From contig SVIM01000016.1 of assembly GCA_015069485.1 (NCBI GenBank), forward strand, positions 1 to 40,197: DNA of 40,197 bases. Direction: 5' to 3'. The DNA is from Clostridiales bacterium (GTDB lineage Bacteria; Bacillota; Clostridia; Christensenellales; Borkfalkiaceae). The position numbers were made by a program, and so were the translations under genes. The notes beneath the pieces were generated by a model. That model saw only the letters and a program-made list of their open reading frames with translations. It was not told the DNA's origin and searched no databases. Positions 10,353-32,578 of this stretch are shown here, one piece after another (the first letter of the stretch is position 1; every line of letters begins with the position of its first letter).

Positions 10353-11170
10353 ATAAGTTTATCTCCTTTTTCCACATTGCATCTATGACAAAGCGTTTGC
10401 AAATTTTTATAAGTAGTTTTTCCACCTTTTGCTATCGGTATAATGTGGTCTACTTCTAACTGCGCAAATCTTTGCGAAACACCACATTTACGACACCTAT
10501 ATCTATCTCTTTAATATATGGAAAATCTCATTTTATTTGAAACCTTACCCCTTTCAACACGACATATTGAATTCCAAATTTCACGGTCATTATAAAAAGT
10601 TCCGTTACGGTTTCGTAGTCGTTTAATTAAAGCAAGTATTTCGTCTGCATAAAATATTTTATTTTTCTTGGCATATATTCGCCCGTTAATTTTTGAACAA
10701 TATAAAGAAATTTCTATGTAGAAATTCGTATGTGGCTTCACGAGCATAGTTTGGCTTATTAATTGCTTTTCAATTGCAACTAATTTGTCATACTTCAATT
10801 TTCCTATATCAACTAAAAATTTGCCTGCTTCCGCCAACCCTACTACTTCTTTTTGATACTCTGTATATAATATACCGTTTTGCTTTTCCTTGTTAATTTG
10901 GTCAATAACTTTAGTGCTTATAAATTGAAGCTGATAAGTTAAACAATCTAAACAACTGATATCACCATAAAAGTTTTCATTATCGTAAGTATGGGACTGA
11001 TTGAAATTGATGTGGTTGAAAAATGTATACTTGCAATTTATTTCTTGTAATTTTTTTAGATAAATACTATTTTGCAAAATAAAATCATTATACTTTTTTT
11101 GAATTACCTTGCGAACAATAAAAAATATTGCTACAATCAAAGCCAAAAATAAACATATAAGAAACGGCAT
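10346..11170 (-). pseudogene. Membrane-anchored HNH endonuclease gene interrupted by an in-frame TAA
   Basis: From the ATG at 11170 (TTTGGAG site, own promoter) 219 codons run to a TAA at 10511-10513. The same frame continues without a break for 54 codons to TAG at 10346. The continuation is a complete HNH module: YRCRKCG, LEVDHIIPIAKGGK, NLQTLCHRCNVEKGD, with paired CxxC motifs and the catalytic His. The first 20 residues are a membrane helix. In this family the region reads MRFSIY-(Lys/Gln)-RD.YRC, so one base change (CAA or AAA to TAA) explains the stop. As it stands the protein lacks its catalytic domain. Everything else, including the terminator, is intact, so the lesion is recent, a read error or read through. 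Confidence 0.8.
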
Positions 11171-16703: not shown

Positions 16704-16719
16704 TGTTTCACGGGAAACA
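16704..16719. promoter_or_regulatory. parS-like site (one mismatch)
   Basis: TGTTTCACGGGAAACA differs at one base from the ParB site TGTTTCACGTGAAACA. It lies 3.2 kb from parB on the ftsH-parAB arm, in a gap without intact genes. Confidence 0.75.
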
Positions 16720-21784: not shown

Positions 21785-23971
21785 TTAATTAAACTTTTTA
21801 AAGGTATTGCTTTGCTCTTCCTTTTTGTCCATATATTCCATAACTTCAGCGTAGGTTTTGCCCTCTAAAAGCATCTCTACCTCTTCGTTATATATGGTTT
21901 CACGCTCCACTAATACCCTTGCCATATTGTCTAACACGCTGCGGTGCTCGGTCAATAAGGATATTGCCCTTTTATACGCTCCGTCAACGATAGCGCGCAT
22001 TTCCTCGTCTATCGCCTTTGCGGTTTCTTCGCTATACTTGTTGTGCGTTTCCATATCCTTGCCAAGGAAAACGGTTTGCGAGCTAGAGCCGTAGCAAAGC
22101 GCGCCTAATTTTTCCGACATACCCCACTCGGTAACCATCCTTCTCGCCGTTTCGGTTGCGCTGTTAATGTCAGCAGAAGCACCCGTGGTTATATCGTGAA
22201 TAACGATTTCTTCAGCAGCCCTTCCACCTAAGCTCATACAAATTTCGTCTAAAAGGAAGTTTTTAGAAAGGTATGCGTCGTCCTTTTCGGGAATCATTAA
22301 GGTATATCCGCCCGCTCTGCCACGGGGAATAATGGTAACCTCCTGTACGGGGTGACACTTGGGGCAAAGCCTTGCTAAAATTGCGTGGCCGGATTCGTGA
22401 TAAGCAGTTATTCTCTTTTCGCTTTCCGTTACTACCTTGCTCTTCTTTTTAGGTCCCATTGCAACCTTGGTAAAGGCTTCGTATAGGTCGGTATTATCGA
22501 TAAGCTCCTTGTTTTCCCTTGCCGCGAGAATTGCCGCCTCGTTTAAAAGGTTTGCAAGGTCTGCACCCGAAAAACCGCTCGTAAGCTTTGCTATGGTTTT
22601 AAAGTTTACGTCCGCCGCCAAGGGCTTATTTCTTGCGTGTACCTTTAAAATTTGCTCTCTGCCCTTAACGTCAAGGAGATTTACGAATACCTGTCTGTCA
22701 AATCTTCCGGGACGGGTTAGAGCAGGGTCTAATATGTCTGCGCGGTTGGTTGCCGCTATTACTATTACGCCTTCGTTATTTTCAAAGCCGTCCATCTGAA
22801 CGAGAATTTGGTTTAAGGTTTGCTCTCTTTCGTCGTTACCGCCACCAAGACCTGCGCCTCTGTGCCTACCTACGGCGTCGATTTCGTCGATAAAGATTAT
22901 GCAGGGCTGATTCTTTTTAGCCATTTCGAATAAATCGCGTACACGGGACGCACCCACGCCCACGTACATTTCTACGAAGTCTGAACCGGATACCGAGAAG
23001 AAAGGCACGCTTGCTTCGCCTGCAACGGCTTTTGCGAAAAGCGTTTTACCCGTTCCGGGAGGACCTACTAACAATACGCCCTTGGGTATTCTCGCGCCAA
23101 GGCTAGAAAACTTTTGGGGATGCTTTAAAAATTCTACCACTTCTGCAAGCTCTACCTTTTCTTCTTCCGCACCGGCAACGTCGTTAAAGCGAACCTTAAT
23201 GTTGGTGGAAACCCTTGCCTTGGTTTTAGCAAAGCTCATTGCTCCCCTACCACCGCCCGTTGCAGAACGGAACATTACTATAACTACTACGACTAAAAGC
23301 ACCATGCTTCCTATTGAAAGGATGGACGACCAGTAGTTGCCGGAGTTGGGATCTTCAAAGGTGATTTCAAGCCCAAGCTCTCTCCACGATTCGATTACGC
23401 TGTTGCTTGCGGGGGATGAGAAGAAGGAAGGTCCTACCGTTACGTACGCTCTCGTAAGCTCTTCGGGGTTTCTCGAGCTTTGCACAAAGCCCGCAAGGTT
23501 GTAGCCTACGATGGAAATTTTCTTTATTACGATTAACTGCTCTTCGCCTAAATAAATTTTTCCGTCCTTTACGGTGTAGCCGAATTCAGTCATATCGTTG
23601 CCGTTTGCGTCGATTACGTAATATTCCGAATCCCTTTCTGCTACTTTAATAGCTTCCGTGGCTTCGATTACGGATTCCGTAGCCACGATTACAACCTTTG
23701 CTTCGCTTTCGACTGAAAGGTTATTCGTCGCGTTTATTCCCGTTTCCGCCACTACGGCGTTGCCACCGCCTACACTCGTGTTGGAATCGGGGTTGGACTC
23801 CGTTCCTCTTACTGCAATTTTGTATTGCAGATTTTCTACGTACTGGGCGAATTTATCGTAGCTAATTTTGCTTGCGCCACCGTTAAGCATGGTGGTAAAA
23901 ATCACCGCAAAAACGGCAATCGCCAGCAAAGCTACCACCACCCAAGTGATTATTTTGCTTTTTTTATTCAT
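21785..23971 (-). CDS. ftsH: ATP-dependent zinc metalloprotease FtsH, enlarged extracytoplasmic domain
   Basis: Membrane AAA+ protease for quality control of membrane and regulatory proteins. 728 residues. Membrane helices at about 9-29 and 215-234; AAA module with Walker A GPPGTGKT (303-310), Walker [10 protein letters not shown] (358-366) and the second region of homology [18 protein letters not shown]; zinc site HESGH (525-529) with third ligand Asp601. The part between the two helices is about 185 residues, roughly twice the usual, with a Val/Ala/Glu/Ser/Asn-rich stretch (about 55-112) that looks inserted. GAAGGAG precedes the ATG. The start at 23971 has a promoter about 95 bases upstream. 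Confidence 0.96.
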
Positions 23972-24093: not shown

Positions 24094-24104
24094 TTACTTG
24101 CCGA

Positions 24105-24960
24105 TTATAAGAATATTCCTTCGCTAGATGACTGCGTGTATTTTCGTCTTTACTTTACGCCGGCTCGTACCTGTCAGCCGTGTATTTGCCAGCCATGTGC
24201 TTGCGACGGCTTATAAGGCTATTCCTTCGCCTACACATGCCTACCGTGTGCTTGACAACGGCTGGGCTTGTCTGCCGTTTGTTTATGCCTGCGTGCTCAC
24301 CTTTACTTTACGCCGGCTCGTACCTGTCAGCCGTGGACTTTACACCCGTGTGCCTGTCTACCGTGTGTTTATGTCTGTGTTCCTTACACCTTTGGGCTTA
24401 CGATTGCATGTTGACGGTGGGTGCTTAATGCCGGTGGCGTGCATATTAGCCGTGTGTTTACCCTGCTTACGATTGTCTATAAGGTTATCCCTTCGCCAAA
24501 CGCCTGCATTTGCTTAATGACGGCTGGGCTTGTCTGCCGTTTGTTTACGCCTGCGTGCTCACCTTTGCTTACGCCGGCTCGTACCTGTCAGCCGTGGGCT
24601 TTACACCCGTGTGCCTGCCTACCGTGTGTTTATGTCTGTGTTCCTTACACCTTTGGGCTTACGATTGCATGTTGACGGCGGATGCTTAATGACGGCAGCG
24701 TGCATATTAGCCGTGTGTTTACGCCTTTGCTTTACACCTGCGTGTTTGTCACCCGTATTTATTCCCGCTTGCTTGTCTATGCTTACCGACGGCGTATGCT
24801 TGTCACCCATGTGCTTAACACCTAATTCTGGCGACCGCTTACAAGAATATTTCTTCACCGAACACCTTCGTAAACTTGACAACCGTGTGCTTTACACCTG
24901 TGGGCTTGAGATTGCGCACTTGTCAGCCGTGTGTTTGATACCTTCTTGCTCGTCTTAGCT
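24105..24960 (+). repeat. GC-richer degenerate repeat array left of the origin
   Basis: An 850-bp block clearly richer in GC than its AT-rich surroundings. Two long copies, 24260-24460 and 24521-24720, are about 95% identical. A marker TTATAAGAATATTCCTTCGC or a variant occurs at 24105, 24211, 24476 and 24839, and GCCGGCTCGTACCTGTCAGC occurs three times (24159, 24307, 24567). Underneath is a 13-16 bp rhythm of the form CCGTGTGCTTGAC. The same family occurs in inverted orientation at 28.7 kb. Frames are open in places on both strands, but none starts well or looks like a protein; the minus strand gives a rough five-residue rhythm (GVKHM, GDKHT, DKHAG). I treat it as non-coding repeat DNA. Confidence 0.8.
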
Positions 24961-25321
24961 TACCGACGGCGGATGCGCTGAAATTTTTTCGCTTAATTTA
25001 CTCGTAATTTAGTCGAGATTTATATAAACATTTTACGACGGACAACTTTGTTTAAAATTTTTATACAAAGTAAATAAAGTAAAAACAACAATTAGGCGCA
25101 AAATTTAATGTGAAGCGTTTTTTAATATTAAATATTAAAAGTTCAACTTTGCATTCATTTTAGCACATATATATTTTATTATCAAGCATTTTGCGCAAAA
25201 AAAAATGTATATCACGCATTTTTTAACGGTTTTTCACAAAACTTTTTATTTATAAAAGTGCCACAATAAACTATTATTTGTTAAAAAATAAGGTGGCGCA
25301 TATGCGCGAACAGGGATTTAA

Positions 25322-25337
25322 TGTTTCCCGTGAAACC
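25322..25337. promoter_or_regulatory. parS-like site (two mismatches)
   Basis: TGTTTCCCGTGAAACC against TGTTTCACGTGAAACA. It is 44 bp from a perfect parS. Confidence 0.7.
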
Positions 25338-25365
25338 AACCAAATTTTAAAAATTGATTTTTTAA

Positions 25366-25381
25366 TGTTTCACGTGAAACA
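25366..25381. promoter_or_regulatory. parS: Perfect parS site
   Basis: TGTTTCACGTGAAACA, the exact 16-bp ParB palindrome of Bacillus-type systems. It lies 22 bp before the first DnaA box of the cluster at 25.4 kb. A half site GCCCGTGAAACA follows at 25670-25681. Confidence 0.92.
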
Positions 25382-25403
25382 GAGTGTGCTTATTTCTTAG
25401 TAT

Positions 25404-25824
25404 TGTGGATAAAACTCTTTAAAATTAGTTTTTATATATGTGGATAACTTTTTAAAACAATACACAAATGTGGATAAATTAGCGTAGAATTACCAAAAAT
25501 TTAGCCATTTTGTCCACTTTTTATAGTATTTTGAGCAAATTTGTTAATATTTTTGCTTAAAATTAAAATTACACAAAAAATTTATATGTTGATATGTTGA
25601 TTAAATGTTAAACAAATGTGGATAAAATTCTAAAATTGAGGGTTATTTACTGCTTTTTAAGCTCGAAAAGCCCGTGAAACAGACTGGTTTTAAGTTTTCA
25701 CGACAATATTTATGTATAGAGTTAGGTTCTTTACCTAAGTATAAAACCCCTTCTGTAAATTTAAAGTACTTAAATTTACAAAAAATTGATACAAATATAA
25801 CCCAAGATAATGATTTGTGGATAA
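25404..25824 (-). other. oriC: Cluster of five perfect DnaA boxes, candidate oriC part
   Basis: TGTGGATAA (TTATCCACA on the other strand) occurs at 25404-25412, 25439-25447, 25469-25477, 25617-25625 and 25816-25824, all in one direction, in very AT-rich DNA next to parS. This is a typical bacterial origin layout. A weak open frame (25674-25910) overlaps the last box and is not believed to be a gene. A melting region could lie in the AT-rich DNA at 25480-25615. Confidence 0.75.
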
Positions 25825-25910
25825 ATTTTTTAAAGATTATTAAAAAATTATATATAGCGCACCGCAAAAGCAATACAAAAAAGCAAAATATAATTTTATG
25901 TATTAATTGA

Positions 25911-26386
25911 TAGAATACTTAACCAACGCCTAAACTTAACGATTTATCGGCAGGAAATCATAGAATACATAAGCCATATTCTTTAAACTGCAGGCAATTT
26001 ACCGTAAATATATCAAATTTCAAGTATTTTAGTCAAAGCCGGGCAGATAAAGCAATAGTTAAATGATATCAGCTCGCAAATATCACCCGTACAGCTTGGC
26101 ATCAAGGGTAAAACACTCTTTTATATTCATTATATTAGCAAAACGAGAATGAAGAATAGCATAAATAACGAGGCATAACCGTAGATAACAGTATAAATTA
26201 CTAATTATTATAAGCGCAAAAGCTTAAAAATAGTTATTAAAAACATAAATGTATTGCGCTATATGCATTATTAATTTCAAGTAGGGTGTAAGCGGTTATA
26301 TTCTTAATTTTATGTTTGAGCGCAGTATTGTTTAAAGGCGCATAGGTATTTAAGCGCTTATATAATTTGTTATGCGCTTAATAAAC
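25911..26386. other. AT-rich gap without recognisable gene
   Basis: Both strands are densely stopped. A minus-strand stretch (about 26080-26220) has short protein-like pieces such as MNIKECFTLDAKLYG, but no start or ribosome site; possibly very old decay. Nothing else supported. Confidence 0.4.
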
Positions 26387-26437
26387 ATTAAATACACAAG
26401 GCGCTTAAATAATAATACTGCGCCTTGTGTATTTAAT
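26387..26437. other. Perfect 18-bp inverted repeat in the origin gap
   Basis: Arms ATTAAATACACAAGGCGC (26387-26404) and its exact complement (26420-26437) with a 15-base loop. It has neither a gene directly before it nor a clear T-tract. AAGCGC/GCGCTT pieces recur nearby (about 26352 and 26375). Could be a terminator of an unseen RNA or an origin structure. Confidence 0.5.
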
Positions 26438-26601
26438 AATAATATTTTAATTTAATAAAAGTTAGTCGAATTTAAAGATAAGGCGAGCTTATGAAATCTG
26501 CTATGCAAAAACCTAAACTTGTTAATTATGTTATAGCGCATAGCAAAAATTAAATAATAGCGCTTCAAATAAGCAATAAGCGCAAATTGCAAAATTTGTA
26601 A

Positions 26602-26617
26602 TGTTTCCCGTGAAACA
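26602..26617. promoter_or_regulatory. parS-like site (one mismatch)
   Basis: TGTTTCCCGTGAAACA, one base from the exact site. 400 bp upstream of yyaC. The flanks 26438-27008 contain no other recognisable feature. Confidence 0.82.
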
Positions 26618-27008
26618 TAGGATTTTTTGTCGCAAATTTATCGTTCTAATTAAGGGGTTTCAGTAAAATAACCTTGTGAGATTACGACAAAACCCATGTT
26701 ATATAGGATGTGCTGTGCGATATTTTCAATATTTGCTTTCCGAAGGCGTTATTGTTTAATACTTTAATTATTATGGTAGGTAAATTAATACGCTTAACAT
26801 TATAAATATTAATATTTATTAACGCATGGTATTTACACGCTAATATAAATTTGGCGTTAAATATGTGTTTTGTGGTTAGGTTTTGATGTGGTATATAAAA
26901 AATTATGTGCGCATAGATGATATAATTAATAATTTTAAGTTAAATTCCTTTATGGCTTGCAGGTTTAATTTTAATATAAATTGGCAATAAGTTATACAGG
27001 AAGTAAAT

Positions 27009-27557
27009 ATGGAATTTTCGTTTAACGTATATAATTCGCTTGCAATAAGTGGCGAAACCTTAGCTTTAAAAAAAATATTACCTTACACCAACGATTTACC
27101 TATAATAATTTGCATTGGTAGCGATTTATCTATAGGCGACAGTTTAGGTCCAATTATTGGAACGACGCTTCAAGGCAAGCTTCAGGGCTTAAACTGTTTT
27201 ATTTACGGAACGCTTTCTAAACCTATTACCGCGCACGAGGTTAAATATTTAAATGACTTTATACGCAAAACTCACCCAAACTGCCCTATAATCGCCATTG
27301 ACGCTGCGGTAGGGGATTCGGGTGATATTGGTTTAATAAAAATTGCCAAGCGCGGAATATGCCCCGGTAGTGGCGCGAATAAAAAGCTTGGAAGAGTGGG
27401 CGACGTTTCTATTATGGGTATTATTGCAGAAAAATCCGCGTTTAATTTTTCCATGCTTTCATCTACGCGCCTTAACGTAATTTATAAAATGGCGCAAATA
27501 ATTTCAGAGGGCGTCTCGAATTTTATTATCGATTATATTAAATGCGCCACAAATTAA
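27009..27557 (+). CDS. yyaC: YyaC-family spore protease-like protein (DUF1256)
   Basis: 182 residues of the YyaC/DUF1256 family, distant relatives of the germination protease GPR, widespread in spore formers; exact role unsettled. Motifs: IICIGSDLSIGDSLGP (34-49), YGTLSKPITAHEV, IIAIDAAVGDSGDIGLIKIA, GICPGSGANKKLGRVGDVSI, and STRLNVIYKMAQIISEGV at the end. GGAAGT lies shortly before the ATG. In Bacillus yyaC sits beside soj-spo0J near the origin; here it is on the far side of the parS/DnaA-box cluster, first gene of the rightward arm. Confidence 0.93.
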   Translation: MEFSFNVYNSLAISGETLALKKILPYTNDLPIIICIGSDLSIGDSLGPIIGTTLQGKLQGLNCFIYGTLSKPITAHEVKYLNDFIRKTHPNCPIIAIDAAVGDSGDIGLIKIAKRGICPGSGANKKLGRVGDVSIMGIIAEKSAFNFSMLSSTRLNVIYKMAQIISEGVSNFIIDYIKCATN

Positions 27558-27663
27558 TTTGTTTACATTAGGTGGGTTTTTTACGCTTTAACATACAAAA
27601 ATACTTTACCTAAATTTATAAAGCAATGTTTTTATATTAATGTTTTTTTTAGTTTTTAGTTGC

Positions 27664-27692
27664 CGAGCGGAGTTTATTCAATACTCCGCTCG
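27664..27692 (+). terminator. Intrinsic terminator after yyaC
   Basis: Arms CGAGCGGAGT/ACTCCGCTCG with a 9-base loop, followed by CTTTAATTTT, about 105 bases past the stop. The gap 27693-28077 shows no gene. Confidence 0.75.
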
Positions 27693-28077
27693 CTTTAATT
27701 TTGCAAATTACTTCTGCGCAAGCCACAAAAATTACGGCACAAGGGTAATTTAAAGTAGCGGCGAAAAAATTTAATTTTTTTACCTTTTGTAATTTAATTA
27801 AGCGTGTGTATATTTAATTTAACTAGTTTTACCCTTGCGTTACCAAATCATTTTTACATTTTTTATATCAGGCGCAGGTGCATTAATTTTTATCACATTA
27901 TTATGCTCTGCTTTATGCTAACAATATAAGGTGATTAGTGCCGTAAAATATAGTTTTGTGTTTTTAATGAACTATCAAAACGGGCAGGGTACGATTGTTT
28001 GGTTTTATCACGAACGGTGGAGAAACTATTAATACGAACGGTGGTGGTGGGTTTTAAAAGGTAAATAATTTACGAAT

Positions 28078-28651
28078 ATGAAAAGAAAAATAGAAAGATA
28101 TTTAAACTCCAAAAACAAAAGTGAATATAGCAATTTAGACAAAATTTTTACCTTTTTTTGCATGGCGAAATTAAAAAAGCGTTATCTGAATACAAGGGCG
28201 ACGGCGTTTACCCCACGTTTAATAAGTCAGAAAAAAATATTTAGTTGAATTATAGCTTTAACAACATTTTCGTCATTATAGATTTTTTGATGATAAGTAT
28301 AGCCTTGCGGTATATCCTGCCGGCATAAGCGTTGACGAGTTAGAAAGGCATAGCAAAGAATATGATTACCAAAACTATTTTTCTTTTTCGGCGCTTATTA
28401 AGGAAATTGACGCAACGATTAAAAAGCATCCAAGCTTAAAGGACACGGCACATTTACAAAAAAAGAAGGCAATATATGCCTTAATTAAATGGATTTGCTG
28501 GTGCATACCGATTGTAATTTGCGCAAGCGTGGCACTATGCGTGCTTATAAAGGAAACGGCTATAATGGTAGAGCCTATTTGGGCAGTTTTATTTTTAGCG
28601 TTGCCTATAATAATCGGTATTATATTTGATATAAAATCGAAAAGGTTATAA
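28078..28651 (+). pseudogene. Frameshifted gene for a small membrane protein
   Basis: Starts ATG AAA AGA AAA with MKRKIERYLNSKNKSEYSNL and ITF-like sequence, then needs a frameshift at a T7 run (about 28150) to continue as HGEIKKALSEYKGDGVYPTF. It hits TAG (about 28243), continues LNYSFNNIF, and needs a second shift at a T6 run (about 28288) to read DDKYSLAVYPAGISVDELER, QNYFSFSALIKEIDATIKKH and two membrane helices (WICWCIPIVICASVALCVLI; PIWAVLFLALPIIIGIIF), ending at 28651. Three lesions in about 190 codons argue for a dead gene, though both frameshifts are at homopolymers and could be sequencing errors. Family not recognised. Confidence 0.65.
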
Positions 28652-28699
28652 ATTTTTTCGCAAGGAGGGGCTTAAAAGCACTAATTGATTTTAAGAAAA

Positions 28700-28830
28700 G
28701 CGGTCACTAAACCAGGTGTAAAGCAAAGGCGAAAACATACGCGGGTGTAGGCGAAGGAATATCTTTATAAGCAGGTTACAAACATACGGCAGTCAAGCAC
28801 GCGCAGGCATAAGCAGGCGTCAAGCACACT
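28700..28830 (-). repeat. Inverted member of the origin-flanking repeat family
   Basis: Read on the minus strand this matches pieces of the 24.1-24.96 kb array: GTGTGCTTGACGCCTGC and GCGTGCTTGACTGCC units, the marker TTATAAAGATATTCCTTCGC (28770-28751), then CGCCTTTGCTTTACACCTG (matching about 24722-24740). GC content is again above the flanks. Its orientation is opposite to the left array, so both copies have the same polarity relative to the origin between them. Confidence 0.7.
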
Positions 28831-29052
28831 TCTATATGGCGAGAATTTAAAAGACGGCGAAATAGATTATTACAAAAAATCAGTTTTTATTTTCGCCTTT
28901 TTTATTTTTTAAATTATATAAAATTTATGCCTTTTAAAAAATTTAATTTAAAAAGATATAAAGGGTTTTATTAAAAATTTATTTGCCGTCATTTTTTATT
29001 GTTTTGTGCAAATTTTTATTAAGTGCGGTATAGTACGGGTGTAATTAAAATT

Positions 29053-29172
29053 TTATCCACTTTTATTTAATTAAGCCATATTTGGGGGGTAATTTTTTTA
29101 ATTTAGGCATAGTTGGGGGGTAATTTTTTTAATTTAGGCATAGTTGGGGGGTAAAATAAAAAGTTATCCATA
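29053..29172 (+). repeat. 31-bp tandem repeat with G6 and T7 runs, flanked by imperfect DnaA boxes
   Basis: About 2.7 copies of a 31-bp unit (29071-29101, 29102-29132, 29133 to about 29156). Each has the core TTGGGGGGTAATTTTTTTAA, except that the last one loses its T-run. Just outside are TTATCCACT (29053-29061) and TTATCCATA (29164-29172), each one base from a DnaA box. Phased G and T runs next to such boxes suggest an origin element, melting region or protein array. Confidence 0.7.
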
Positions 29173-29279
29173 TTTTCACGGTATATTTGTTGATAAAACT
29201 TAATAAAATATAAAACCGCTTTTTGTGTTTTGTTAAAGAATTAAAGCGTTAAATTTTTATATAAATTTTTTAAATTGCG

Positions 29280-29308
29280 TTGCGATACGGTTAAAAAAAT
29301 GTTATAAT
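29280..29308 (+). promoter_or_regulatory. Promoter of the YpsA-like gene
   Basis: TTGCGA (29280-29285), 17-bp spacer, TATAAT (29303-29308). Only 16 bases separate the -10 from the ATG, so the leader is about ten bases and nearly leaderless. Confidence 0.65.
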
Positions 29309-29324
29309 AATTACGGATAAAATT

Positions 29325-29780
29325 ATGGATTACGGTTGTTCTTTTAGCGGGCATAGGTTGGTTGGTACGGATTTAGACTTAAACCTTTTATGCCGAGTTA
29401 TCGAAAACTTAATAAATTTCCGTGGCGTAACTAATTTTTTTTGCGGTATGGCAAAGGGGTTTGATTTAATCGCCGGCGAGTGCGTTATTAAATTAAAAGA
29501 AAAATACCCTAATATTAAGCTTTTTGCTTGCGTTCCCCATCAAGGTCAGGCAGATTATTACTGCGCCGAGGATAAGCGTAGGTACGCCGAAATTTTGCAT
29601 AGTTGCAACGAAATTTTTACTCTTTCCACGCATTATTACAACGGCTGTATGCTTTATAGGGATAGGTATATGGTGGAACGAACGCAGTTTTTAGTATGCT
29701 TTTTGCGCGAAAAAAAGGGCGGTACTTTTTATACCTATAACTACGCCAAAAAGAAGGGCTTGCAAATTATTGAGGTTTAG
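29325..29780 (+). CDS. YpsA/DUF1273-like SLOG-superfamily protein
   Basis: 151 residues with SLOG (LOG/DprA-like) Rossmann features: SFSGHRLVG near the start, FFCGMAKGFDLIAGE (42-56), FACVPHQGQADYYCAEDKRRYAEILHSCNEI, YYNGCMLYRDRYMVERTQFLVCF and GGTFYTYNYAKKKGLQIIEV. SLOG proteins bind nucleotides or derivatives; YpsA affects division and stress in Bacillus, but the ligand is not settled. It stands alone in the origin zone on the plus strand, with a very short leader. Confidence 0.88.
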   Translation: MDYGCSFSGHRLVGTDLDLNLLCRVIENLINFRGVTNFFCGMAKGFDLIAGECVIKLKEKYPNIKLFACVPHQGQADYYCAEDKRRYAEILHSCNEIFTLSTHYYNGCMLYRDRYMVERTQFLVCFLREKKGGTFYTYNYAKKKGLQIIEV

Positions 29781-29917
29781 CCTTGCCCTATTTTATTGTA
29801 AAAGCTTAATGCCCGAACGCTTGTGTTTAAAAAGTTTTAAAAGCAGGGTAGGCTTATTAAATTTATACCGATTTTACCCTACTTTATAAATTTTATTAAT
29901 TATTAAAATAAAATAAG

Positions 29918-29953
29918 AGCCCGCTATTTTTCAAGCGCGAAAAATAGCGGGCT
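29918..29953 (+). terminator. Intrinsic terminator, possibly bidirectional
   Basis: 15-bp perfect stem AGCCCGCTATTTTTC/GAAAAATAGCGGGCT with a 6-base loop, then ACGCTTTTG on the plus strand. It lies between the convergent YpsA-like gene and the rsmG side and could serve both. Confidence 0.8.
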
Positions 29954-29969
29954 ACGCTTTTGTTAAGCT

Positions 29970-30188
29970 TTATTTATTTTCCGTGTCGGTTAAAGCTTTT
30001 TCTTCTATCTTTTTAGGGGCTATAATTTCGGGCATTTTAAGGCCTTCCATCGCATATTAGTCGTCAAGGGGAGGGAGGAACTTCATCATCCCGGAAACAA
30101 AATTTACAGTTGCCGTTTTGCGGTTACTTTTTTTTGCCGTTGCAATCTTAATGTTGCTTTTTTTCTTTTTACAGTTATATTTTTGCTC
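29970..30188 (-). pseudogene. Remnant of the 3' end of an unidentified gene
   Basis: A minus-strand frame downstream of rsmG is open from 30188 to 29970 apart from one TAA (30057-30059): EQKYNCKKKKSNIKIATAKK, then TATVNFVSGMMKFLPPLDD, stop, YAMEGLKMPEIIAPKKIEEK, ALTDTENK, stop. There is no start codon upstream in frame and no good ribosome site. It looks like the C-terminal end of a lost gene, or a gene with one recent stop. Family unknown. Confidence 0.35.
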
Positions 30189-30254
30189 TTAAAATTTTAC
30201 GGTTTTCGTTTTTACTACTTAATTTATTAAAACGGTAATTTTTATAGGCTTACT

Positions 30255-30941
30255 TTATTTAATGGGGCTTTTTCTTTCTTTGCCGTTACCGCGCGGATAC
30301 TGAATAGGGGTGGGCGCAATTTTTTTAATTGCTATAATATTTCTTACCCCTGCTTCGTCAGGAAGCTCTACCCTTTCAACCTTTTCTATTTTACCGCCCA
30401 AAATTTTTACGGCGTTTTGCGCTTCTATAATTTCTTCTTCAGCGTCGCCCTTATAAGCTATAAAATAACCTCCCACCTTTACGAAGGGCAAGCAATATTC
30501 GCATAAAACGTTAAGCCTTGCAACTGCCCTTGCGGTGCAAGCGTCGAACTTTTCACGCAAGCTTTTATCCTTTCCGCCGTCCTCTGCGCGAATATTCAAT
30601 ATATTCACGTCTTTATGCACTAATTTATCCACAACCACCTGCAAAAATTCACATTTTTTGCCGGTAGATTCCACTAAAGTAAAGCGCAAATCGGGGCGAA
30701 TTATTTTAAGGGGAGTGGAGGGGAAGCCCCCGCCCGAGCCTATTTCAATAACGCTTGCGCCCTTTTTAAAAAACTTTTCGCCCAAAACGCTATCTAAAAA
30801 ATGCTTAATTTTAACGCCTTTATCGTCTAAAATCGCCGTTAAATTATATTTTTTGTTGTACTCGACGAGTAAATTTTTGTATTCTTCAAATTTTTCCTTA
30901 TACTCGCCTTCAATTAATTGCAAATAATAATTAATATCCAT
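30255..30941 (-). CDS. rsmG: 16S rRNA (guanine-N7) methyltransferase RsmG
   Basis: Uses S-adenosylmethionine to methylate G527 of 16S rRNA. 228 residues. SAM-binding motif VIEIGSGGGFPSTPLKI (about 64-80), VESTGKKCEFL, NILNIRAED, ARAVARLNVLCEYCLP and GYFIAYKGD are family-typical. It is normally grouped with mnmE/mnmG or parA near the origin; here it stands alone, leftward, 530 bases from dnaN. A DnaA box (30625-30633) lies inside the coding sequence. Confidence 0.96.
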   Translation of the reverse strand: MDINYYLQLIEGEYKEKFEEYKNLLVEYNKKYNLTAILDDKGVKIKHFLDSVLGEKFFKKGASVIEIGSGGGFPSTPLKIIRPDLRFTLVESTGKKCEFLQVVVDKLVHKDVNILNIRAEDGGKDKSLREKFDACTARAVARLNVLCEYCLPFVKVGGYFIAYKGDAEEEIIEAQNAVKILGGKIEKVERVELPDEAGVRNIIAIKKIAPTPIQYPRGNGKERKSPIK

Positions 30942-31471: not shown

Positions 31472-32578
31472 ATGAAAGCCGTTTGTCAGGGTATAGATTT
31501 ATCGGATGCTGTATTAAAGGTAGTTAAAGCTTGCGCTACGAGAACTACCGTTCCCGTAATGGAATGTATTAAGATTTCTGCAAAAAACGACGGAATAACT
31601 CTCACCGCAACCGACGGTGAAATTGCAATACAAAAAAAGATTTCGGCAGAAATTTTAGAAGAAGGGGAGGTTTGCGTTCCCGGTAAATATTTTGCCGACT
31701 TTATTAAAAAATTAGAGGGCGTGGAAATAGTTCTTTCTGCAACCAACAAAAAAATGGAAATTAAGTACGCCGACAGCCAAACCTCTATGCAAATTTTATC
31801 GGCTGACGATTTCCCCAAGGTTGATACCGATATTAAGGATAACAGCTTTAAAATTAAAACGGAGGATTTGAAAAATATTATTTCCGCAACCTCCTTCTGT
31901 TGCGCAAGCGACGATTCCAGACCTATTTTAAAGGGCTGTCAGTTCGTAATTTCCGGTAGCGCGCTTTGCGTTACGGCGTTGGACGGCTTCCGCCTTGCAA
32001 CGGCAAATACCGCCGTTTTAGAGGCTACTGCAGATATGGAATTCGTTTGCCCTGCAAGAACCTTAAACGAAATTGAAAAAATGCTCCCCGACGCAGAAGA
32101 GGTTACCGAGGTATTTATTCAAAAGGGTATGATTTTGGTTGCGGTAGAAAGCACCGTTTTAACCTCTCGCTTATTCGGCGGTGATTTTATTAAAAAGGAA
32201 AACATTATTCCTAAAAGCTTTACCACCTGCGTTACGGTAGATAAGGCGCTTTTAAAAAGCAGTATCGAAAGAGCGGCTATTTTAGTTAGAAACGATAGAA
32301 ACAGCCTTATTATTATGGATATATCGCAGGGTAAGGTGGAAATTTCTTCTAATTCAGATATAGGCAACGTAAACGAGCCCGTAAAAGCAGAGGTAGAAGG
32401 CAAGGATATTAAAATTGCAATGAATTCCAAATTTATATCCGAAGCAATCAACGCGCTCGACGACGAAATTGCAGAACTTTCGTTTAACAGCAACGTTCAG
32501 CCCTTTATTTGCCAAAATAAAGACAAAAAGCAAGTATTATATTTAATTTTACCCGTAAGAACGGCAAATAACGCTTGA
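31472..32578 (+). CDS. dnaN: DNA polymerase III beta subunit (sliding clamp)
   Basis: Ring-shaped processivity clamp that tethers polymerase III to DNA. 368 residues in three similar domains; markers are SRPILKGCQF (148-157), CVTALDGFRLA, SRLFGGDF, and the C-terminal VLYLILPVRT that forms part of the partner-binding pocket. TAGGAG precedes the ATG. dnaA, its usual upstream neighbour, is absent; instead dnaN is followed by rpmH 119 bases on, in the same direction. Codon use and strand fit the rightward replichore. Confidence 0.97.
   Translation: MKAVCQGIDLSDAVLKVVKACATRTTVPVMECIKISAKNDGITLTATDGEIAIQKKISAEILEEGEVCVPGKYFADFIKKLEGVEIVLSATNKKMEIKYADSQTSMQILSADDFPKVDTDIKDNSFKIKTEDLKNIISATSFCCASDDSRPILKGCQFVISGSALCVTALDGFRLATANTAVLEATADMEFVCPARTLNEIEKMLPDAEEVTEVFIQKGMILVAVESTVLTSRLFGGDFIKKENIIPKSFTTCVTVDKALLKSSIERAAILVRNDRNSLIIMDISQGKVEISSNSDIGNVNEPVKAEVEGKDIKIAMNSKFISEAINALDDEIAELSFNSNVQPFICQNKDKKQVLYLILPVRTANNA

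Follow-up and report, generated by a model that had tools for sequence, protein, structure and literature searches.

Origin iterons and DnaA-box clusters are repeated short sites at an origin, and FtsK-orienting polar sequences (KOPS) are short motifs spread over the chromosome. Bacterial minisatellites, or variable-number tandem repeats (VNTRs), are presented in PMC2884548 as short direct repeats that serve to type strains and are attributed to slippage or to recombination at short homologies, and PMC9879509 describes the Borg-element tandem repeats as fast in their evolution, of recent formation and of independent origin. Here, a 40,197-nucleotide stretch (the window) from a Clostridiales bacterium of the family Borkfalkiaceae (contig SVIM01000016.1, assembly GCA_015069485.1) has been analysed, in which a GC-richer repeat array at positions 24105-24985 and a smaller inverted relative at 28713-28831 lie on the two sides of the presumed replication origin. 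The array is likely to be a lineage-specific, noncoding, degenerate minisatellite located in the spacer between the ftsH promoter region and a pair of parS sites, with a small inverted fragment beyond yyaC, and we hold this with good confidence. When compared to the minisatellites, VNTRs and Borg repeats, the units of this array are far more degenerate and their spacing is irregular, and the array is known here from one genome. Its likeness to iterons and DnaA-box clusters lies in the presence of repeated short sites at an origin; unlike these, it is not found in relatives, is degenerate and is located outside the core of parS sites and DnaA boxes that relatives keep. A preliminary description of this DNA had drawn an analogy with chromosome-polar motifs, of which KOPS, with one orientation per replichore, are an example, whereas the array family is present here in two places within 5 kb.

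The unit model resolved about 34 units in the main array, all of them read on the minus strand, with a consensus near GTGTNAAGCACACGG and internal repeats designated D1-D7. A short unit repeated head to tail along a single strand is the arrangement of a minisatellite. The commonest spacing is 15 bp, which was found exactly in 13 of the 33 intervals, the others being variable; the 13-16 bp rhythm proposed in the preliminary description has been corrected to 15 bp with irregular spacers. The GC content of positions 24105-24990 is 0.504, versus 0.40 in the window. For the 430-bp half that excludes the second duplicate the unit-model score was 147, and 40 shuffled halves reached at most 93, a comparison that leans somewhat toward the real half because this was seeded with the consensus and each shuffled half with four random words. 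The strongest internal repeat is a duplication at 261-bp spacing on the minus strand, with a first copy at 24249-24465 and a second copy at 24510-24726 (repeats D2 and D7), whose alignment contains 17 differences including two 1-bp gaps; the copies diverge by gaps and at every codon position. A 22-bp marker, GCGAAGGAATATTCTTATAAGC, was found five times in the window with up to 5 mismatches: four times on the minus strand of the large array (24103-24124 at its ftsH-proximal end, 1 mismatch; 24209-24230, 2 mismatches; 24475-24496, 5 mismatches; 24837-24858, 3 mismatches), once on the plus strand in the small array, and nowhere else.

The small relative comprises 119 bp on the plus strand, inverted with respect to the main array, and contains one marker (28751-28772, 2 mismatches) and units at 28716, 28790 and 28817 (unit-model score above 8). 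The homology and opposite directions of the two arrays claimed earlier were borne out, since the best local score between them was 51 in inverted orientation and 14 in direct orientation, with a best value of 38 among 500 order-2 Markov shuffles. Three inverted matches link both arrays: 28713-28741 with 24712-24740 (29 bp, 93% identity, E 4e-9), 28745-28772 with 24209-24236 (28 bp, 93%, E 2e-8) and 28715-28770 with 24105-24161, at the ftsH-proximal end (58 aligned columns, 78%, E 5e-8). Side by side in the small array, the two strongest blocks have best partners in the large array that are about 500 bp apart. In view of the 58-column match, the small array may have been derived from the ftsH-proximal end of the large one, by inverted copying and divergence.

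Contig C14, of which the window is the full length, belongs to a 1.52-Mb genome in 46 contigs. A genome-wide scatter of copies, which the preliminary description had named as evidence against its own interpretation, was not found, the matches in this genome at E<=0.001 being limited to the array itself and two segments of its small relative. The unit with up to 1 mismatch occurs three times in the genome, always within the array, so it is not a chromosome-wide polar motif, and the flip at the origin for which such a motif had been invoked rests on two loci. Many copies on both replichores with strand bias, as for KOPS, were likewise not found. With only two loci, an opposite orientation has a chance of one half and offers no orientation statistics. 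Because the contigs are unordered, replichore orientation has been judged in this window alone, and the search for strand bias across both replichores suggested earlier gave no high-identity copies outside the array, a weaker bias being beyond its reach.

No match to the array at E<=0.001 was detected in 92 congeners (0 of 60 and 0 of 32 further genomes), a restriction to one lineage as is expected of a minisatellite. At E<=0.1, two of the 32 further congeners matched (G083, 33 bp, E 0.004; G061, 27 bp, E 0.012), with no repetition seen by eye around either match. The origin loci of 40 congeners were fetched, of which 38 were measured and two (L047 and L060) were left out, as ftsH or yyaC was unmatched. 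The ftsH - parS - yyaC layout is kept in the 38 measured loci, with the parS pair 42-48 bp apart in 33 of them and a single site in five. A short-query blastn search of both arrays against the 40 loci gave only two 13-bp matches (E 0.75); a unit conserved at the corresponding position of related origins, as is expected of an origin-binding array, was therefore not found. The distance from the ftsH start to the first parS-like site is 1350 bp here and 323 bp in G061, the congener with the most similar FtsH, so that about 1 kb is extra on the ftsH side of this genome. A two-unit pattern with 2 mismatches matched the own genome twice and 17 of 300 other family genomes once each, and its reversed control had matches in 11 of 301 genomes. 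The marker with 2 mismatches was found in two of 93 genus genomes, the own one and G017, where its place resembles, by eye, a terminator stem behind a gene. Beyond the family, one exact two-unit match was obtained in genome_contigs (84,980 species, a collection that may omit this one), as a single copy in a Chloroflexi contig that has been read as chance. Among the paper titles listed by the literature searches, none names such an array at an origin.

A degenerate minisatellite of this kind would have grown by slippage or by unequal recombination between 15-bp units, after which larger blocks would have been duplicated and then worn by point mutation. The small piece beyond yyaC would be a diverged fragment of the array family, copied or moved in inverted orientation by a local rearrangement, perhaps the one that inverted the neighbouring ypsA. 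A rearrangement nearby is indicated by the ypsA gene (29325-29780), which is on the plus strand here, and on the strand of gidB in all 32 congener loci with a match (of 40), also in G061. By the G061 matches, the borders of the ypsA inversion lie at 27541-29341 and 29755-30269, and the small array may have been within it or not; in the former case it was once oriented like the large array. The array can be explained without any sequence-specific function.

The abundance of tandem arrays was compared with Tandem Repeats Finder (TRF) and with a k-mer test on noncoding windows of 400 bp, which overlap and hence are not independent, in which N would be read as A and whose listings were restricted to GC above 0.4. 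In 386,024 bases sampled from the own genome, 27 arrays were found in 64.1 kb of noncoding sequence (0.42/kb) versus 21 in 135.9 kb in 40 congener stretches (0.15/kb), and the k-mer z value exceeded 8 in 32 of 446 own windows (6 of them in this array) versus 12 of 717 windows of the congener controls. Since the density of the own genome is above that of the controls, the presence of one more array in a spacer is unremarkable in this genome, and another GC-rich degenerate array was found in it (L148:17584-17701). The origin regions of the genus were also considered as a hotspot of lineage-specific minisatellites, a candidate that was rejected because their density is not above that of the 40 control stretches: 11 arrays in 72.4 kb of noncoding origin segments (38 of 40 loci) versus 21 in 111.2 kb (binomial p 0.78; p 0.44 to 0.73 at other cut-offs), the segment border in loci without gidB being the locus end or 2 kb beyond yyaC. 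In the k-mer test, z was above 8 in 12 of 1205 origin-locus windows, which cover whole loci and extend past dnaN, versus 12 of 717 control windows.

Several observations weigh against a neutral minisatellite or against these comparisons. By DNA similarity the family is confined to the two sides of the origin, as a neutral repeat need not be. The units of the large array are uniformly on the minus strand, which is its purine-richer and likely the leading strand, and the small array shows by eye the same relation of strand and purines. With 3 mismatches the unit had 103 genome matches versus 54 for the reversed control, an excess above the share of the arrays; among the matches listed, 11 are in the large array and two in the small one, and others are located in C11:2142-2224 and C16:16800-16952, unrelated repeats with periods of 34 bp and 138 bp. 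This genome is thus somewhat rich in the letters of the unit, but contains no high-identity motif across the chromosome. The rest of this contig is not rich in tandem arrays (one in 16.0 kb of noncoding sequence, 0.06/kb), and the own-genome sample is non-random, consisting of contig starts and the small contig C11, picked for a repeat seen there. Noncoding sequence was defined as lying outside open reading frames (ORFs) of 150 codons, so that shorter genes may contain some of the counted arrays. Of the main array, TRF reports no more than 38 bp (score 41), and it is nearly blind to arrays this worn, so the array counts cover better-preserved arrays and the comparison is carried by the k-mer test. 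The comparison covers one genome per species, this one included.

One suggestion of the preliminary description was that an origin-organising protein might bind the arrays, with a single reading direction per replichore, and the position of the arrays on both sides of parS sites and DnaA boxes, their opposite orientation, the uniform strand of the units and a weak candidate GTGT...ACAC dyad read by eye off the unit matrix would all agree with it. We nevertheless consider such a function very unlikely, as the 92 congeners have no match although their origin layout is kept in the 38 measured loci, the units are degenerate and irregularly spaced, the unit with up to 1 mismatch is found only three times in the genome, two loci give no statistics on orientation, and the origin regions of congeners have no excess of tandem arrays over controls. 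A variant in which the inverted arrays would be a fast-evolving, species-specific satellite pair marking the sides of the origin, with a sequence that turns over between species and a bound protein that reads position and direction, seems hardly credible; if it held, bacteria would have a counterpart of fast-changing centromere DNA. A pair of repeats that flips orientation around an origin can be an isolated minisatellite of one lineage, so that any claim of a polar function first calls for a comparison with relatives and for a genome-wide control. The same description had left room for a mobile or satellite repeat, of which the satellite half was supported. Insertion of a mobile element, or of its satellite, to either side of the origin would account for two inverted copies with a common marker and for the absence of matches in the 92 congeners; this is quite improbable given that DNA similarity revealed no more copies in the genome, that phages and plasmids gave no match, that neither of two patterns was matched exactly in viral contigs and that no transposase was recognised among the 20 ORFs of the window scanned with Pfam, so that neither dispersed copies nor a transposase speak for it.

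A decayed protein-coding gene or a low-complexity coding repeat is suggested by open frames of 129 and 142 codons on the plus strand, in the same frame, and by an 87-codon frame on the minus strand with KHT-like motifs. However, 18% of order-1 and 27% of order-2 shuffles contain an open stretch at least as long as the longest one here (145 codons), three frames compared with Pfam had no match at E<=0.1 (two without any match and one at E 0.2), and the duplicate copies differ by alignment gaps. The protein homologs of a decayed gene, also named in advance as contrary evidence, were not found for two frames in 100 other family genomes, and a coding origin is therefore very improbable, the array behaving as noncoding in all these respects. 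A structured RNA was tried and rejected, since the Rfam matches in the window were four tRNAs, none of them in the array, and the fold z values were 0.16 (minus strand) and 1.29 (plus strand), with 13 and 16 of 20 shuffles folding at least as well. An assembly artefact has to be considered because the window is a whole contig of a fragmented genome (46 contigs) and repeats are prone to misassembly; it is extremely unlikely, as the flanking gene order agrees with that of congeners except for ypsA and the internal copies differ by 5-40%, a divergence that argues against duplicated reads. The degenerate noncoding minisatellite thus remains the preferred reading.

The parS sites and DnaA boxes reported between the arrays were confirmed as three parS-like sites and five exact DnaA boxes. 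The latter (TGTGGATAA) are on the minus strand between 25404 and 25824, at 25404, 25439, 25469, 25617 and 25816. An exact parS site (TGTTTCACGTGAAACA, 25366-25381) forms a pair with a parS-like site at 25322-25337 (2 mismatches), as in the 33 congener loci with such a pair, and a third site is located at 26602-26617 (1 mismatch). A further parS-like site with 1 mismatch (16704-16719) lies left of parB, outside the arrays and the origin spacer. Cumulative GC skew reaches a local minimum at 24-25 kb but falls lower at 12-13 kb, so the origin is not fixed by skew alone, but the DnaA boxes, the parS pair and the conserved layout place it here well enough.

To the left of the array, parB, parA and ftsH are on the minus strand, and to the right, after the DnaA boxes and parS sites, are the DUF1256 gene, ypsA, gidB (minus strand), dnaN, rnpA, yidD, yidC and jag. 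The nearest genes are ftsH (21785-23971, minus strand; AAA and Peptidase_M41 domains in Pfam) and the DUF1256 gene (27009-27557, plus strand), which is yyaC-like, and both are directed outward from the intervening stretch of DnaA boxes and parS sites. Between ftsH and the array, a promoter-like TTGCAA-16-TATAAT at 24093-24066 on the minus strand was found by a promoter scan, as a consensus match only and with a scan total (30) near the shuffle mean (24.7). Directly before the small array, positions 28029-28651 resemble a broken small membrane-protein gene, judged by eye from pieces of open frame, and a separate tandem repeat with three copies of 31 bp and a GGGGGG run is located at 29062-29154.

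Other repeats were observed in the same analysis. Unrelated arrays next to yyaC or between ftsH and yyaC were seen in the congeners G028, G047, G087, G006 and G068, among TRF arrays with periods of at least 6 and, outside the window, scores of at least 60. Arrays in such positions in four congeners lie at L072:11187-11645, L067:2091-2457, L052:11523-11697 and L054:11701-11898. Intergenic repeat families of 31-36 bp (TGTCATCCTTGAGCGGAGCCGTAGG... and AGATTCTTCGTTGCACTCAGAATGACAG...) recur in the own genome (L139:8422-11225; L151:1616-2359 and 10406-10469), and a literature search for strings related to them gave no paper that was bacterial by its title. Repeats of 138 and 123 bp at L147:16674-17041 and L156:9202-9445 have by eye a common sequence, AAACTCCGCTTTTGCTTCGGTCATTTACGC or its complement, on opposite locus strands. 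Finally, dnaN (31472-32578) is not preceded by dnaA, the sole dnaA match of the genome (PF08299) being located on contig C39 near 69.4 kb (L161).

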